From: Chloroflexota bacterium
GTDB taxonomy: Bacteria; Chloroflexota; Limnocylindria; QHBO01
Assembly: GCA_040902225.1 (NCBI GenBank)
Contig: JBBDXT010000007.1
Location: 513,112-577,111, forward strand
Direction of reading: 5' to 3'
DNA: 64,000 bases
A program made the position numbers and the translations under genes. Under the pieces are notes generated by a model, which saw nothing but the letters and a program-made list of their open reading frames with translations, made no database searches and was not told where the DNA came from. Shown piece after piece: positions 6,282-13,455 of this stretch (positions are counted from its first letter, which is position 1; every line of letters starts with the position of its first letter).

Positions 6282-7130
6282 ATGAAGCAGGTGGGCTGGC
6301 GCATCGCGCTCATCACGACCGTGCCGCCCGTGGCCGCGGCATTTGTTCCCACACTGCGCGAGCTCGGCCATGACCCGGTCGCCATCATCAGCGCTCGCCG
6401 GCGGCAGCCTACACCGCCCGGTCGCGAGCCGATGGGCGACGAGACCGCGCCCCCTGGCCTCGACGTGCTGCTGGCGCACGACAAGTGGTCGGTCGAGCCG
6501 CTCCTGCGCGCCAGCCGCCCGGACCTGGCGCTGTGCTGGGGATTCCCGTGGCGCATTCCGCAGGGGGCGCTGGATGTGCCCCCGCTCGGTTCAGTCAACT
6601 GCCACCCCGGCATGCTGCCCCGCCATCGCGGCCCGATCCCGCTGGCCTGGGCCTTCCGCGATGGAGACGCGCAGTTCGGCGTGACCTGGCATCGGATGGA
6701 CTCGGAGCTCGACACCGGTCCGATCCTGGCCCAGGCCCCGGTGCCGATGCTCGACGACGACTATGGCATCGACGTGGTCGGTCCGCGCATGGGCGCGGTG
6801 GCGCTCAGCCTGTTGCCGGAAGTCTTCGCCCGCATCGCGGCCGGCGACCCCGGCGACCCGCAGCCGACCGAGGGGGTCACCTGGGCCGGCCATTTCGGCG
6901 AGGACTACGCGACCGTCGACTGGTCCCAGTCTGCGCGACAGATCCACGACCAGGCGCGCGCCTGGGCCTTCACGTTCGGCCTGTCGCCGGTGGTTGGCCC
7001 CATCGCCGAACTGGATGGTAAGCGGGTCCGCTTGGTCCGCACATCTCTCAGCGACCCGGGCGGCGACGCTCGGCGCGTTGAAGCCGGCGACGGGCCGCTC
7101 TGGATCGTTGAGGCCGAGCCCTTGGACTGA
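6282..7130 (+). CDS. Formyltransferase family protein, Fmt-like
   Basis: Formyl-transferase fold using 10-formyl-THF, 282 residues. The catalytic triad aligns with E. coli methionyl-tRNA formyltransferase at the same numbers: N106 and H108 in NCHPGMLPRHRGP, and D144 in GVTWHRMDSELDTG. The usual SLLP is GMLP, and a C-terminal domain is present but short (Fmt is usually about 310 residues). It may be the cell's Fmt or a paralogue that formylates another amine. It starts opposite fchA-folD, in a small one-carbon neighbourhood, and ends 6 bp from the convergent SOS-controlled small gene. Confidence 0.72.
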   Translation: MKQVGWRIALITTVPPVAAAFVPTLRELGHDPVAIISARRRQPTPPGREPMGDETAPPGLDVLLAHDKWSVEPLLRASRPDLALCWGFPWRIPQGALDVPPLGSVNCHPGMLPRHRGPIPLAWAFRDGDAQFGVTWHRMDSELDTGPILAQAPVPMLDDDYGIDVVGPRMGAVALSLLPEVFARIAAGDPGDPQPTEGVTWAGHFGEDYATVDWSQSARQIHDQARAWAFTFGLSPVVGPIAELDGKRVRLVRTSLSDPGGDARRVEAGDGPLWIVEAEPLD

Positions 7131-7136
7131 GGCTCC

Positions 7137-7397
7137 CTACGCTGCCTCGTCGAGTGCGTCCACGAACCAGCGCCGGCGCCGTCCATCGAACACGACCGAA
7201 GCCTGGCCCGCATCGGTCTCGACCAGGTAGGTGATGCGCGGGCCGCGATCAGCGGGGTAGGCCGCGGTCTCGTCGCGCATCACGTCAAGCCCGGTTACGG
7301 TCAGCTGTCGGCCACCGACCCGGACGGTCGAGGGCCTTGCGAGTCGCCGGTCCCACTGCACGCGTGCCGGGGTCGGCGTGATCTTGGTGAGCGCCAT
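7137..7397 (-). CDS. Small SOS-controlled protein of unknown function
   Basis: A basic, hydrophilic 86-residue protein with no membrane segment, ending FDGRRRRWFVDALDEAA. It is predicted to be mostly beta-strand. ATG 7397 is preferred, with AAGGAG 11 nt upstream; GTG 7406 would be only 2 nt from it. The gene follows dinB on the same strand but has its own promoter with two LexA boxes (7437-7488), so it should be induced by DNA damage both independently and by read-through from lexA-dinB. It loosely resembles small domains found next to Y-family polymerases in Actinobacteria (DUF6504-type), which is only an impression. Function is unknown. Confidence 0.75.
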   Translation of the reverse strand: MALTKITPTPARVQWDRRLARPSTVRVGGRQLTVTGLDVMRDETAAYPADRGPRITYLVETDAGQASVVFDGRRRRWFVDALDEAA

Positions 7398-7436
7398 CGG
7401 TTCCACAACTCCTTCACGCCGCCTGCCGCAGGCACC

Positions 7437-7488
7437 GAACAGGCGTTCTATTAGGCGGCAGCATACGAACAGGTGTTCGACTTGTCAA
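7437..7488 (-). promoter_or_regulatory. SOS promoter with tandem LexA boxes
   Basis: On the minus strand a perfect -35 TTGACA (7488-7483) and a -10 TATGCT (7465-7460) are 17 nt apart. LexA box 1, CGAACACCTGTTCG, fills the spacer at 7479-7466. Box 2, GAACGCCTGTTC, lies at 7448-7437, just downstream of the expected start. Box centres are 30 bp apart, about three helical turns. The -35 overlaps the dinB stop codon. It serves the 86-residue gene. Confidence 0.9.
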
Positions 7489-8696
7489 GGGTCCGGGTCG
7501 GGTGGCAGCTCGGGCTTCTCCCCGAAGTCAAAGCGGCGCCGATCCCGGTGCCCGATGAGCCGCGCCCGCGTGATCGCCTTCTCCCCGAACCGTCCGCGCA
7601 CCGCGTCGATCGAGCGCGTGATGCGATCGGCCTTGTCGGGTTCGTCGAAGAGGGTGAGCTGCTGGACATCGGTCAGATTGATGGCGGTCAGGCCGATGAG
7701 GCGCACGGCGCGGTCGCGGACCAGCGTCTTGCGCAGCAGGGCGACGCCGGCGGCATAGATCGGCTCCGATTCGCGGGTCTGGCGTGGCACCGGCATCTGC
7801 CGGGTGAGCGTTTCAAACCCCTCGTAGCGGAGCTTGAGCTGCACGGCGCCCGCGGCCAGGTGATGGCTGCGCAGACGGCTCGCCACCGATTCGGCCAGGT
7901 CGAGCAGCGTCGCCTCCAGGCGCGCCGGATCGTCGACGTCACGCTCGAACGTCAGCTCATGACCGATGCTCTTGGGTGCCTGCCACGCGACCACGGGCGC
8001 CGGGTCGATGCCGCGAGCGCGGAGCGCCAGGTCGTGGCCGTGGCTCCCGAATCGGCGGCGGAGGGTCCCATCGGGCAGCGCCGCCAGCTGCCCGATCGTG
8101 GTCACGCCATAGTCGGCCAGTGCCTGGCGCGATTGCGGCCCGACGCCCCACAGCCGGCTGACGGGGAGCGGAGCCAGGAACTCTGCCTCACCGCCAGGAG
8201 GGACGACGACCAGCGCGTCGGGCTTGCGCAGGTCCGATGCGACCTTGGCGCACAGCTTGTTGGTCGCCACCCCCACACTGACCACCAGTCCGGCCTCTGC
8301 GAGCACGCGCTGCTTGAGCGCCCGCCCGATCGTCTCGCCGTCGCCGAACACCTCGCGGCTGGCGGTGACATCCAGGAACGCCTCGTCCAGGCTGATCGGC
8401 TCGACCATTGGCGTGTACGAGGCGAAGATCCGCATCACCTGGGTCGAGAGGTCGCGGTAGCGGTCCGGGTGGCCGGGAAGGAAGACGCCGGTAGGGCAGA
8501 GTGCAGCCGCGGTGCGGATGGGCATGGCGGAGTGGACGCCGAACTTGCGCGCCTCGTACGAGGCGGCCATCACCACGCCCCGCGTTCCGCGATCGCCGCC
8601 CACGATCACCGGTTTGCCGCGCAGGGACGGGTTGTCGAGCACCTCGACGCTCGCGTAGAAGGCGTCGAGATCGGCGTGGAGGATGGTGCGAGTCAT
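7485..8696 (-). CDS. dinB: DNA polymerase IV (Y-family)
   Basis: Error-prone translesion polymerase, 403 residues. Catalytic palm motifs are present: HADLDAFYASVE near the N-terminus with the first metal-binding Asp, and SLDEAFLDVT around residue 105 with the D-E pair. The steric YEARKFGVHSAMP block and a little-finger domain follow. The C-terminal tail is short and shows no clear beta-clamp motif. It lies 12 nt downstream of lexA on the same strand with no promoter between, so it is the second gene of an auto-regulated SOS operon. The start is the ATG beginning MTRTILHADL. Confidence 0.96.
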   Translation of the reverse strand: MTRTILHADLDAFYASVEVLDNPSLRGKPVIVGGDRGTRGVVMAASYEARKFGVHSAMPIRTAAALCPTGVFLPGHPDRYRDLSTQVMRIFASYTPMVEPISLDEAFLDVTASREVFGDGETIGRALKQRVLAEAGLVVSVGVATNKLCAKVASDLRKPDALVVVPPGGEAEFLAPLPVSRLWGVGPQSRQALADYGVTTIGQLAALPDGTLRRRFGSHGHDLALRARGIDPAPVVAWQAPKSIGHELTFERDVDDPARLEATLLDLAESVASRLRSHHLAAGAVQLKLRYEGFETLTRQMPVPRQTRESEPIYAAGVALLRKTLVRDRAVRLIGLTAINLTDVQQLTLFDEPDKADRITRSIDAVRGRFGEKAITRARLIGHRDRRRFDFGEKPELPPDPDP

Positions 8697-8708: not shown

Positions 8709-9392
8709 CTACGTCAGCTTGCGGATGACCCCGACCACCTTGCCCTGGATCTGGACCTCGGTGGCGTAGATCGGCTCCATCTCGGCATTCGCCGGCTGCA
8801 GTCGAATGCGGTCCTTCTCGCGATAGAAGCGCTTGAGCGTGACCCCATTGTCCTCGAGCAGGGCCACGACGATGTCGCCGTCGTGGGCGGTTGCCTGGGG
8901 CTGGACCACGACGTAATCGCCGTCGTCGATGAGGTCGTCGATCATGCTCTTGCCGCGCACGCGAAGGACGTACGAGTCGTCGCGCGCCTGCAGCGAGCGG
9001 GGGACATCGAGCGTCTCGGCGCCCTCCGCGTAGGCCTCGATCGGCTGGCCGGCGGCGATCTCGCCGACCACCGGGAGGGCCAGGCGATCGCGCTCCATCC
9101 GCATCCGGAACGGCGTGACCCGGCTCCGTTCGGCCGGTACCGGGCGGCGAGCGGGTAGACCCAGCTCGGCTTCAGCGCGAACCGTCAGTCGCAGGGCGCG
9201 CGATGAGTGGGAGCCGCGCTCGACCATCCCGTCGCGCTCGAGGGCGGTCAGGTGGTGGTGCACAGCCGATGGCGAGGCAAGGCCGACCGCCTCGGCAATC
9301 TCTCGCACGCTGGGCGGATAGCCGCGCTCCGCGACGATGCGGGCGATGCTCTCGAGGATCTTCCTGCGGCGCTCGGCGTCATGCTTTGTCAC
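8709..9392 (-). CDS. lexA: LexA repressor
   Basis: SOS repressor and autoprotease, 227 residues. The N-terminal winged helix (PPSVREIAEAVGLASPSAVHHHL, residues about 26-48) binds GAAC-N4-GTTC operators. The cleavage site is Ala114-Gly115 in GEIAAG, with catalytic Ser149 (GKSM) and Lys187 (VTLK). A linker of about 30 residues separates the domains. The start is GTG 9392, 6 nt after AAGGAG. Its own promoter holds one LexA box (9432-9443), so it represses itself and dinB. Actinobacterial and Bacillus LexA proteins recognise the same operator type. Confidence 0.97.
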   Translation of the reverse strand: MTKHDAERRRKILESIARIVAERGYPPSVREIAEAVGLASPSAVHHHLTALERDGMVERGSHSSRALRLTVRAEAELGLPARRPVPAERSRVTPFRMRMERDRLALPVVGEIAAGQPIEAYAEGAETLDVPRSLQARDDSYVLRVRGKSMIDDLIDDGDYVVVQPQATAHDGDIVVALLEDNGVTLKRFYREKDRIRLQPANAEMEPIYATEVQIQGKVVGVIRKLT

Positions 9393-9422: not shown

Positions 9423-9452
9423 ACAGTACCAGAACAGGCGTTCTAATGTCAA
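9423..9452 (-). promoter_or_regulatory. lexA promoter with LexA box
   Basis: Minus-strand TTGACA (9452-9447) is followed after 18 nt by TACTGT (9428-9423). The LexA box GAACGCCTGTTC (9443-9432) fills the spacer, so LexA binding would block RNA polymerase. The layout matches the promoter at 7437-7488. Confidence 0.85.
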
Positions 9453-10792: not shown

Positions 10793-10840
10793 ATGCCTCG
10801 CCAATGCCTCGCCGTGCCTGCCTGCGTGGCGAGCCGATGA
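10793..10840 (+). CDS. Possible 15-codon leaderless leader peptide of dnaB
   Basis: ATG 10793 lies 7 nt after the -10-like TAGGGT (10780-10785), the same spacing as other apparent leaderless genes in the window. It opens a 15-codon frame (MPRQCLAVPACVASR) whose TGA overlaps the dnaB ATG at 10837 (ATGA). dnaB has no convincing Shine-Dalgarno sequence, so re-initiation from this frame could drive it. A dnaB start at ATG 10804 is the competing explanation. Confidence 0.3.
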   Translation: MPRQCLAVPACVASR

Positions 10841-13455
10841 GCATCGACAAGCTGGCACCACAGGCGGTCGAGGCCGAGCAGAGCGTCCTCGGCTCGATCC
10901 TGATCGATCCTGAGGCGATCCTCAAGGTCGCCGACTTCCTTCATCCGCCCGACTTCTACCGCCAGCAGCACTCCGACATCTACGAGGCCATGCTCGGCCT
11001 GCATGGCCAGCGTGAGCCGATCGACCTGGTGACGCTGGGGGACGAGCTGGCGCGTCGGGATCGGCTGGAACCGATCGGCGGCCCGGCCTACCTGGCCAGC
11101 CTGATGAACATGGTCCCCACCGCCGTCCACGTGGAGCACTACGGCCGGATCGTCGAGCGCAAGGCGGTGCTCCGCAACCTGATCGGCGCGGCCGGCAAGA
11201 TCGCCGCTGTCGGCTACGAGGAGGCCAACGACGCGGAGGCCGCCATCGACCGGGCCGAGGGGATCCTGTTCGAGATCAGCCAGCGCCGCACAGTTGGCGG
11301 ATTCGAATCCCTCGCCACGCTGCTGGGCCAGGCCTACGACCGCCTCGAGTACCTGCACGAGCATCGGGGCCAGATCCTGGGCATCCCGAGCGGGCTCTCG
11401 CAGCTGGATGCGCTGCTGGGTGGCTTCCAGCCGTCCGACCTGATCATCCTCGCCGCCCGGCCGAGCGTCGGGAAGACGAGCATGGCGCTGAATATCGCAC
11501 AGCACGCGGCGGTGCACGAGGGAAAAAAGGTCGGCGTCTTCTCGCTGGAGATGAGCAAGGAGCAGCTCGCGCTGCGCCTCCTCTCGGCCGAGTCGGGGAT
11601 CAACCCGCGACCCCTGCAGAGCGGCTTCGTGGACGAGACCGACTGGAGCAAGATCGCCCAGGTCATGAACTCGATGCACGCGGCGCCGATGTGGATCGAC
11701 GACTCGCCGGTGCTCACCGTCCTGGAGCTGCGGACCAAGGCCCGTCGCCTGGAGGCGGAGCAGCGCGGGCTCGATCTGCTGATCGTCGACTACCTGCAGC
11801 TGATGCAAGGGGGCTACTCGCAACGGGAGCCGAACCGGGTCCAGGAGGTGAGCGAGATCAGCCGAGGCCTGAAGCAGCTGTCGCGGGAGCTGAAGGTGCC
11901 GGTGATCGCCCTCTCCCAGCTGTCACGCGGCGTCGAGCAGCGAGGCAGTGCCGAGCCACGCCTCTCCGACCTGAGGGAGTCGGGCTGCCTGACAGCGGAC
12001 ACCCGGATCCTTCGCGCCGATACGGGGGCTTCGGAGTCTCTCGGCGAGCTGCTGGCCCGCGGCGAGCGAAACGTCCCCGTCTGGTCTGTCACCGACAACC
12101 TGCGATTGGTGCGCCGCACCATGACGCATGTCTTTCCCAGCGGCATGAAACCGACCTACCGTTTGCGACTTGCCTCCGGTCGCGAGGTGAAGGCCAGCGG
12201 CAACCACCCATTCCTGACCATGGACGGCTGGGCCGCCCTCGATGATCTGCGGGTGGGAAGCCGGGTGGCTGTGCCGCGCCGCGTCAGCGCTCCGGCGTCG
12301 GTGCGCGAGTGGCCGGCAGCCGAGGTCGTGATGCTCGCGCACCTGATCGGGGATGGGACCGTTGCCAGCCATCAGCCGATCCACTACACCAGTGCCGACG
12401 AGGAAAATCTCCGGGCCGTGGCCGACGCCGCATCTCACTTCGGAGTCACGCACCGGCGGGTGAAGCAGGGCAGCTGGACTCACATCTACCTGCCATCGCC
12501 ATACCCGCTCGCGCGCGGCCGTCACAACCCCATCGCTGCGTGGCTGACCGGCCTCAACCTCTATGGCCTGCGGGCGCATGAGAAGTTCCTGCCGCCGCAG
12601 GTCTTCGGCCTGCCGGACACACAGGTACGCCTCTTCCTGCGCCACCTGTGGGCGACCGATGGGTCGGTCACCACCGCGCGCGGCGGAGCAGTCAGGATCT
12701 ACTACGCCACCACGAGCCGACCGCTCGCCGAGGACGTGCAGGCTCTGTTGCTCCGGGTTGACCTGCGTGCGCGGCTGCGATCCGTGCCAGCGACGCGCGG
12801 TCGTTTCGGCTACACCGTCGATGTATCGGGGGTCTCCGATCAGCGGAGGTTCCTGGAGGAGATCGGTGTCCACGGGGCGCGGGCGGAGAGTTGCCGGTCG
12901 GCCCTGGTCCGACTGCGCGGTGTGGCCTCGAACCCCAACGTCGACACCATCCCGCTGCAGGTCTGGCGTTCAGTCCGCCTGGCAATGAACGGACGCGGTC
13001 TGTCCGAGCGAGCGCTGCAGGTGGCAGTCGGGTCGTCCTACGCGGGCAGTTCTTTCTACCGCCACGCACCGAGTCGCCCACGGTTGGCGAAGCTGGCGGA
13101 GGTTCTCGAGGACCCGGGGCTGCAAGACCTGGACACTGGCGATCTGTTCTGGGATCGGGTGGTGGCCATCGAGCCGCTCGGGCAGGAGATGGTCTACGAC
13201 GCCACGGTGCCCGACACGAACAACTTCATCGCCGACGGCATCGTCGTCCACAACTCCATAGAGCAGGATGCGGACGTTGTGATCTTTCTCTATCGCGACG
13301 GCGAGGCGAACGCGAACAGCGACGTGGAATTGATCAAGGCCAAGGTGGCCAAGCACCGCAACGGCCCGATCGGGGAGGTCCCGCTGCAGTTCCGCAAGAC
13401 AAACACGCGCTTCTACACGATGGCCGCCCGGGAGACCGAGGCCGTTACCTACTAG
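10837..13455 (+). CDS. dnaB: Replicative DNA helicase DnaB, interrupted by an intein
   Basis: Replicative hexameric helicase precursor of 872 residues; removal of the 423-residue intein leaves a 449-residue DnaB, the normal length. The N-terminal domain (AVEAEQSVLGSILIDPEA) and the RecA-like domain with Walker A ARPSVGKTS (K213) and Walker B LLIVDYLQLM are intact. The C-terminal extein SIEQDADVVIFLYRD restores the arginine-finger region. The intein sits at the conserved RESG/SIEQD site also used by the Synechocystis DnaB intein. ATG 10837 (MSIDKLAPQAVEAEQ) fits the family start; ATG 10804 would add 11 residues. The gene follows rplI after a 265-bp regulatory gap. Confidence 0.95.
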   Translation: MSIDKLAPQAVEAEQSVLGSILIDPEAILKVADFLHPPDFYRQQHSDIYEAMLGLHGQREPIDLVTLGDELARRDRLEPIGGPAYLASLMNMVPTAVHVEHYGRIVERKAVLRNLIGAAGKIAAVGYEEANDAEAAIDRAEGILFEISQRRTVGGFESLATLLGQAYDRLEYLHEHRGQILGIPSGLSQLDALLGGFQPSDLIILAARPSVGKTSMALNIAQHAAVHEGKKVGVFSLEMSKEQLALRLLSAESGINPRPLQSGFVDETDWSKIAQVMNSMHAAPMWIDDSPVLTVLELRTKARRLEAEQRGLDLLIVDYLQLMQGGYSQREPNRVQEVSEISRGLKQLSRELKVPVIALSQLSRGVEQRGSAEPRLSDLRESGCLTADTRILRADTGASESLGELLARGERNVPVWSVTDNLRLVRRTMTHVFPSGMKPTYRLRLASGREVKASGNHPFLTMDGWAALDDLRVGSRVAVPRRVSAPASVREWPAAEVVMLAHLIGDGTVASHQPIHYTSADEENLRAVADAASHFGVTHRRVKQGSWTHIYLPSPYPLARGRHNPIAAWLTGLNLYGLRAHEKFLPPQVFGLPDTQVRLFLRHLWATDGSVTTARGGAVRIYYATTSRPLAEDVQALLLRVDLRARLRSVPATRGRFGYTVDVSGVSDQRRFLEEIGVHGARAESCRSALVRLRGVASNPNVDTIPLQVWRSVRLAMNGRGLSERALQVAVGSSYAGSSFYRHAPSRPRLAKLAEVLEDPGLQDLDTGDLFWDRVVAIEPLGQEMVYDATVPDTNNFIADGIVVHNSIEQDADVVIFLYRDGEANANSDVELIKAKVAKHRNGPIGEVPLQFRKTNTRFYTMAARETEAVTY
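11986..13254 (+). mobile_element. DnaB intein with LAGLIDADG homing endonuclease
   Basis: In-frame protein intron of 423 residues. Splicing residues are complete: Cys1 (CLTADTRIL), block B ASGNHPFLTMDGW with the N-x-H-type pair, C-terminal block F VYDATVPDTNNFIADG, and the terminal His-Asn followed by Ser+1. Two endonuclease motifs are intact, LAHLIGDGT (Asp at intein position 123) and LRHLWATDGSV (Asp at 225), so the homing enzyme may still cut intein-less dnaB alleles. Intein spread is horizontal, so its origin need not match the host gene. Confidence 0.96.

Follow-up and report, generated by a model that had tools for sequence, protein, structure and literature searches.

Stand-alone ImuB-C proteins encoded beside DinB/PolY polymerases have already been published (Aravind et al. 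2013, PMC3765255), and the domain is recognised by a highly conserved Trp at its C-terminus, together with two or more conserved basic residues (PMC3765255). In ImuB the ImuB-C domain follows a RecA-NT motif, and in Geobacter a lexA-imuB-C-polY operon, GeoPolY, was described in 2019 as damage-induced (PMC6511836). ImuB-C has been called the least characterised module of the mutasome (PMC6511836), and it has been reported as a new barrel, structurally unlike the SH3 barrel of YolD/YqjX (PMC12926913).

The locus described herein lies on the minus strand of a 64,000-nucleotide stretch of a Chloroflexota genome (the window), where lexA (8709..9392), dinB, encoding Pol IV (7485..8696), and a gene for an 86-residue protein (P0001; 7137..7397) follow one another. 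From dinB to the small gene, there are a -35 element TTGACA (7483..7488), which contains the dinB stop codon TGA and is conserved class-wide, LexA box 1, CGAACACCTGTTCG (7466..7479), within the 17-nt promoter spacer, a -10 element TATGCT (7460..7465), LexA box 2, AGAACGCCTGTTCG (7436..7449), 3' of the -10 and 30 bp after box 1, and the ribosome-binding site AAGGAG (7409..7414). A single box, AGAACGCCTGTTCT (9431..9444), belongs to lexA. The small gene has its ATG at 7397-7395 and its stop codon at 7139-7137, and the MA(L/M) start is kept among 106 homologues; a GTG start at 7406 was rejected, as the ribosome-binding site lies too close to it and the ATG start is conserved. The product of dinB carries the catalytic motifs HADLDAFYASVE and SLDEAFLD, the clamp motif QQLTLF and a RecA-NT-like tail, RITRSIDAVRGRFGEKAITRARLI. 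An earlier note on this DNA had described a single small gene behind lexA-dinB under TTGACA, a 17-nt spacer holding one LexA box, TATGCT and another box 30 bp further along, and each of these elements lies exactly where it had been placed. Elsewhere in the window, dnaB (10804-13455) contains an apparent in-frame intein, the insert starting with CLTADTRILRAD and ending in IVVHN.

Because the neighbouring formyltransferase-like gene (6282-7130, plus strand) is convergent, the small gene forms a one-gene unit, into which read-through transcription from lexA-dinB could also pass. It is scarcely credible that the double LexA promoter serves mainly the folate genes fchA-folD, with the small gene as their leader: these genes do lie downstream on the same strand in most relatives, but in the window the convergent gene intervenes, the spacing at other loci varies between less than 60 and more than 1700 bp, and the small protein is itself conserved.

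Judged by its sequence, the 86-aa protein is a divergent stand-alone ImuB-C, a remote relative resembling Pfam DUF6504. The earlier note had recognised no family in it, which is corrected here, and its suggestion of DUF6504 as a lead for HMM searches proved sound. Of 106 members, 19 had a weak match to DUF6504 (best E 0.004), more than to any other Pfam family, and comparison with the ImuB-C of the class by hhalign gave a probability of 94% and a score of 42.6, collinear over 79 columns, against at most 1.5% and 15.6 in 30 column shuffles and 0.3% for the reversed profile. The probability was likewise 94% with the short DUF6504 subgroup of other Chloroflexota, and a non-significant 3% with the long subgroup alone. 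The small-protein HMM also matched the ImuB-C of its own genome directly, if weakly (E 0.05). No member reached the gathering cut-off of PF20114 (DUF6504; 24.2 bits); as the ImuB-C encoded behind imuB in the same class (L288) is likewise without a Pfam match, this cut-off evidently misses the class, and we file the family under the ImuB-C superfamily, not PF20114. NCBIfam and PHROGs held no match to the 86-aa protein, a PDB sequence search with it gave nothing significant, and a Pfam match to Peptidase_S6 (E 0.25) was discarded as chance.

In the class, DUF6504-like proteins are encoded with an ImuB-like protein on one side and DnaE2 on the other; ImuB of Bosea itself ends in a DUF6504 domain (residues 429-503, above the cut-off). 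Since DUF6504 thus adjoins ImuB and is fused to it in Bosea, we equate it with the ImuB-C domain of Aravind et al. (PMC3765255). No mention of DUF6504 was found in the literature searched, within which a divergent ImuB-C subfamily below Pfam detection appears to be new.

Structure prediction, suggested as a check by the earlier note, agrees with this assignment. The AF2 models of the 86-aa family (pLDDT 88.9) and of ImuB-C (pLDDT 89.3) have six strands in the same order at nearly the same positions, a likeness judged from strand order and position. Foldseek gave no match at E below 0.001, and hence no solved relative, in the PDB (86-aa protein only) or BFVD (both models), where the top match common to both, A0A8S5PG70, was weak (E 0.02 and 0.06); the absence of a clear structural match agrees with the report of ImuB-C as a new barrel (PMC12926913). 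W77 and R41 are invariant among the 106 members and R54 and R73 are conserved in at least 90%, with W77 and R54 aligning with the conserved W and R of ImuB-C and R41 adjoining a conserved WR pair. The protein therefore has the C-terminal Trp and basic residues of ImuB-C, along with the length of about 80 residues and predominantly beta structure (86 aa, six AF2 strands), the profile similarity and the linkage to SOS and Y-family polymerase genes that are expected of such a protein.

Homologues occur in 131 of the 177 genomes of the class (Chloroflexota), and two perfect GAACN4GTTC boxes lie within 250 bp upstream in 105 of the 111 homologues examined, a count that rises to 110 if one mismatch is allowed: in five of the six remaining loci the second box, at 34-35 bp, deviates at a single position. 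The box-to-box distance in the 105 loci with two perfect boxes is 23-42 bp (mode 33-34), CTTGACA precedes box 1 by 8-10 nt in each of the three families having the gene, and the -35 and -10 elements show a mean of 2.5 mismatches, compared with 5.4 in shuffles. This promoter with its two boxes is kept while protein identity among homologues falls to about 30%. The double-site pattern GAACN4GTTC-N11-30-GAACN4GTTC is found once in the 2.28-Mb genome of the window, as the sole such site there, and in 144 of the 177 class genomes, nearly always once per genome; the reversed pattern, used as a control, is almost absent from the same 177. The double site therefore exceeds chance. With boxes placed to block the promoter and kept in relatives, the gene has the marks of a LexA-regulon member. 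Homologues without LexA boxes in unrelated contexts, which the earlier note had named as evidence that would count against it, are the opposite of what we found, the boxes being kept also at loci from which dinB has moved away or where it is encoded on the other strand. Within the literature searched, a class-wide tandem-LexA promoter of a stand-alone ImuB-C appears to be new.

Several loci differ in arrangement. In genus g37 (L127, L138 and L144), dinB and rplI are transcribed away from the small gene on the other strand, and the small gene retains its two boxes. In genus g21 (L105, L107, L108, L111 and L121), a gene recognised as Ada through Pfam/NCBIfam at L107 is divergent from the small gene and has the double-box intergenic region in common with it. 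On one short contig (L074; G034:C29), the gene and its boxes are present twice, in nearly identical copies that point towards one another and each have dinB sequence, which is perhaps an assembly artefact.

Tandem operators are often placed on harmful SOS genes, and the small gene is a stand-alone transcription unit; both would suit the checkpoint protein that the earlier note had offered as an alternative, that is, an inhibitor of division or replication of the SulA or YneA kind, tightly repressed as harmful. This idea found no support, and we regard it as very unlikely: Pfam and NCBIfam gave no match to SulA or YneA, the sequence has no hydrophobic segment and so neither a known domain of that type nor a membrane anchor, and the relation to ImuB-C and the retention of the gene together with dinB both speak against it.

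The genome of the window has 28 perfect GAACN4GTTC sites. Intergenic perfect single boxes lie upstream of lexA, dnaE2, a dprA-like gene, an Lhr-type helicase and an imuA-imuB-ImuB-C cluster, with another near uvrA, and because of this company the boxes are predicted to be those of LexA and the genes bearing them to be the SOS regulon of the genome. No perfect box was present in the 1.1 kb examined upstream of recA. As lexA has one box and the 86-aa gene two, the tighter repression that the earlier note had suggested for the latter is a fair inference.

Across the class, the small gene is associated with dinB, the gene for Pol IV. At 75 of 111 loci, dinB is found within 700 bp upstream in the same orientation; the other loci mostly reach a contig end or have another gene inserted, and dinB is unlinked or divergent in some genomes. 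Genus g37 has the small gene in 17 of 19 genomes, 16 of these 17 having dinB and four a DnaE2-type match, with DnaE2 found in five of the 19 overall, four of them with the small gene, where a DnaE2-type call means more bits per position than DnaE1, read from the score table, and the genomes are small and incomplete. Nearly all of the 91 class DinBs examined keep the clamp motif and DxxRxRFGxxAxxRAxLL. The earlier note had proposed checking co-occurrence with dinB in relatives, which these counts bear out, and its suggested role in the damage response, perhaps with Pol IV, is supported by the position of dinB, the co-occurrence and the tandem LexA boxes.

In a published model for M. tuberculosis, ImuB-C binds DnaE2 (PMC12926913), and dnaE2 is present and LexA-boxed in the genome of the window, so the small protein might instead be the ImuB-C subunit of a DnaE2 mutasome, binding the PHP domain of DnaE2, with dinB an incidental neighbour. 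That genome, however, has a canonical LexA-boxed imuA-imuB-ImuB-C cluster as well as a separately boxed dnaE2. The box at G000 C4:183827 is predicted from its position to drive this cluster, and the second, canonical ImuB-C gene directly behind imuA-imuB (L308 2374-2625; G000:C4:185873-186124) was missed by Pfam DUF6504 and matched the ImuB-C profile with E 2.9e-28. Relatives keep imuA-imuB-ImuB-C-dnaE2 together as a group, and in genus g37 the small gene is far more widespread than DnaE2, which leaves a DnaE2 subunit improbable. Because the genome already possesses imuA-imuB-ImuB-C and a separately boxed dnaE2, the additional ImuB-C is probably for Pol IV, which, as far as sequence can tell, is probably a better partner for the 86-aa protein than DnaE2. 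A genome that carries ImuB-C twice, once alongside ImuA-ImuB and once alongside Pol IV, appears to be new within the literature searched.

Aravind et al. proposed a sensor function for ImuB-C, noting its occurrence in operons with Pol IV, Pol V, DnaE2, Ku-ligase and SplB (PMC3765255). Applied here, the protein would bind DNA, sense damage in it and direct several repair enzymes to it, instead of being a polymerase subunit, which would fit its many conserved Arg and the Ada gene that uses the same promoter region in one genus. We think this unlikely, as the class-wide association is with dinB, whose tail has the motif that precedes ImuB-C in ImuB, and as the fusion of DUF6504 to ImuB in Bosea favours a polymerase partner.

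In two families of the class, dinB is present but the small gene is absent. In family f5, which lacks it, the one tandem LexA-box site of the genome (L241-L260) is at the start of a gene for an Hrq1/MrfA-like DEAD-box helicase, seen in three loci examined by Pfam; the idea that this site marks a diverged copy of the small gene was rejected accordingly. The double-box site of family f4 yielded no gene identification at the one locus looked at. In both families (L294-L301), the slot behind dinB is taken by an unrelated small ORF of about 90-130 aa, without LexA boxes and with the motif AIDFIxFCFERR...WPxLYDEMCxVAxxRLYxGLGYxEL, and several of these genomes have a winged-helix, AlkZ-like gene upstream of dinB.

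Like the stand-alone ImuB-C proteins and GeoPolY, the small protein is an all-beta protein of roughly 80 residues with a conserved C-terminal Trp and basic residues, and its gene adjoins lexA and the gene of an apparently active Y-family polymerase with a RecA-NT motif. It differs in falling below Pfam detection, in coexisting with a second ImuB-C in the same genome, and in having its own two-box promoter, whereas the imuB-C of GeoPolY lies inside the lexA-polY operon. Predicted fold, hallmark residues and LexA control are common to it and the ImuB-C of ImuB/DnaE2 loci, but the latter follows ImuB (fused in Bosea, separate in the class) and precedes DnaE2, whereas the 86-aa gene follows Pol IV. 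YolD/YqjX with YqjW/UvrX, a putative Gram-positive counterpart of Pol V, similarly places a small beta subunit beside a RecA-binding Y-family polymerase, with no sequence relation seen between YolD/YqjX and the 86-aa protein; a tblastn search of plasmids with the class ImuB gave Bacillus UvrX as the only match. By analogy only, the protein resembles UmuD of E. coli Pol V, an SOS-induced small subunit that licenses a Y-family polymerase; unlike UmuD, it is unrelated in sequence and without a protease domain, and any delay would come from the promoter, not from cleavage.

We consider it likely that the 86-aa protein is a stand-alone ImuB-C acting as a damage-inducible accessory of Pol IV (DinB), a small beta-barrel-like subunit. 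The computed basis for this consists of the tandem promoter found class-wide, the kinship with ImuB-C, the association with dinB and the RecA-NT-like and clamp motifs on DinB. LexA on box 1 would compete with RNA polymerase, blocking between the -35 and -10, and LexA on box 2 would add a second block, on early elongation, such that expression of the small gene would need a deeper fall in LexA than that of lexA-dinB. The protein may then bind the DinB tail, and the RecA recruited there, at the clamp, where it would perform in trans the function that the ImuB-C domain serves in cis within ImuB, thereby licensing or steering Pol IV in translesion synthesis. More tentatively, Pol IV of this class could be a two-step machine, in which the polymerase is made early and leakily from the one-box lexA promoter while its own ImuB-C licensing subunit is held back by two boxes, confining error-prone bypass to heavy, lasting damage. 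If true, Pol IV would be subject to a delay comparable to the one that UmuD cleavage imposes on Pol V, but at the level of transcription.

Collectively, the data presented here put a name to a gene that some three quarters of the genomes in this little-studied class possess. They suggest that this lineage has one ImuB-C apart from the DnaE2 mutasome, probably paired with Pol IV and under a tandem-LexA promoter that is the sole one in its genome, and another ImuB-C that stays with ImuA-ImuB; comparison of the two copies would make the role of the domain directly testable.
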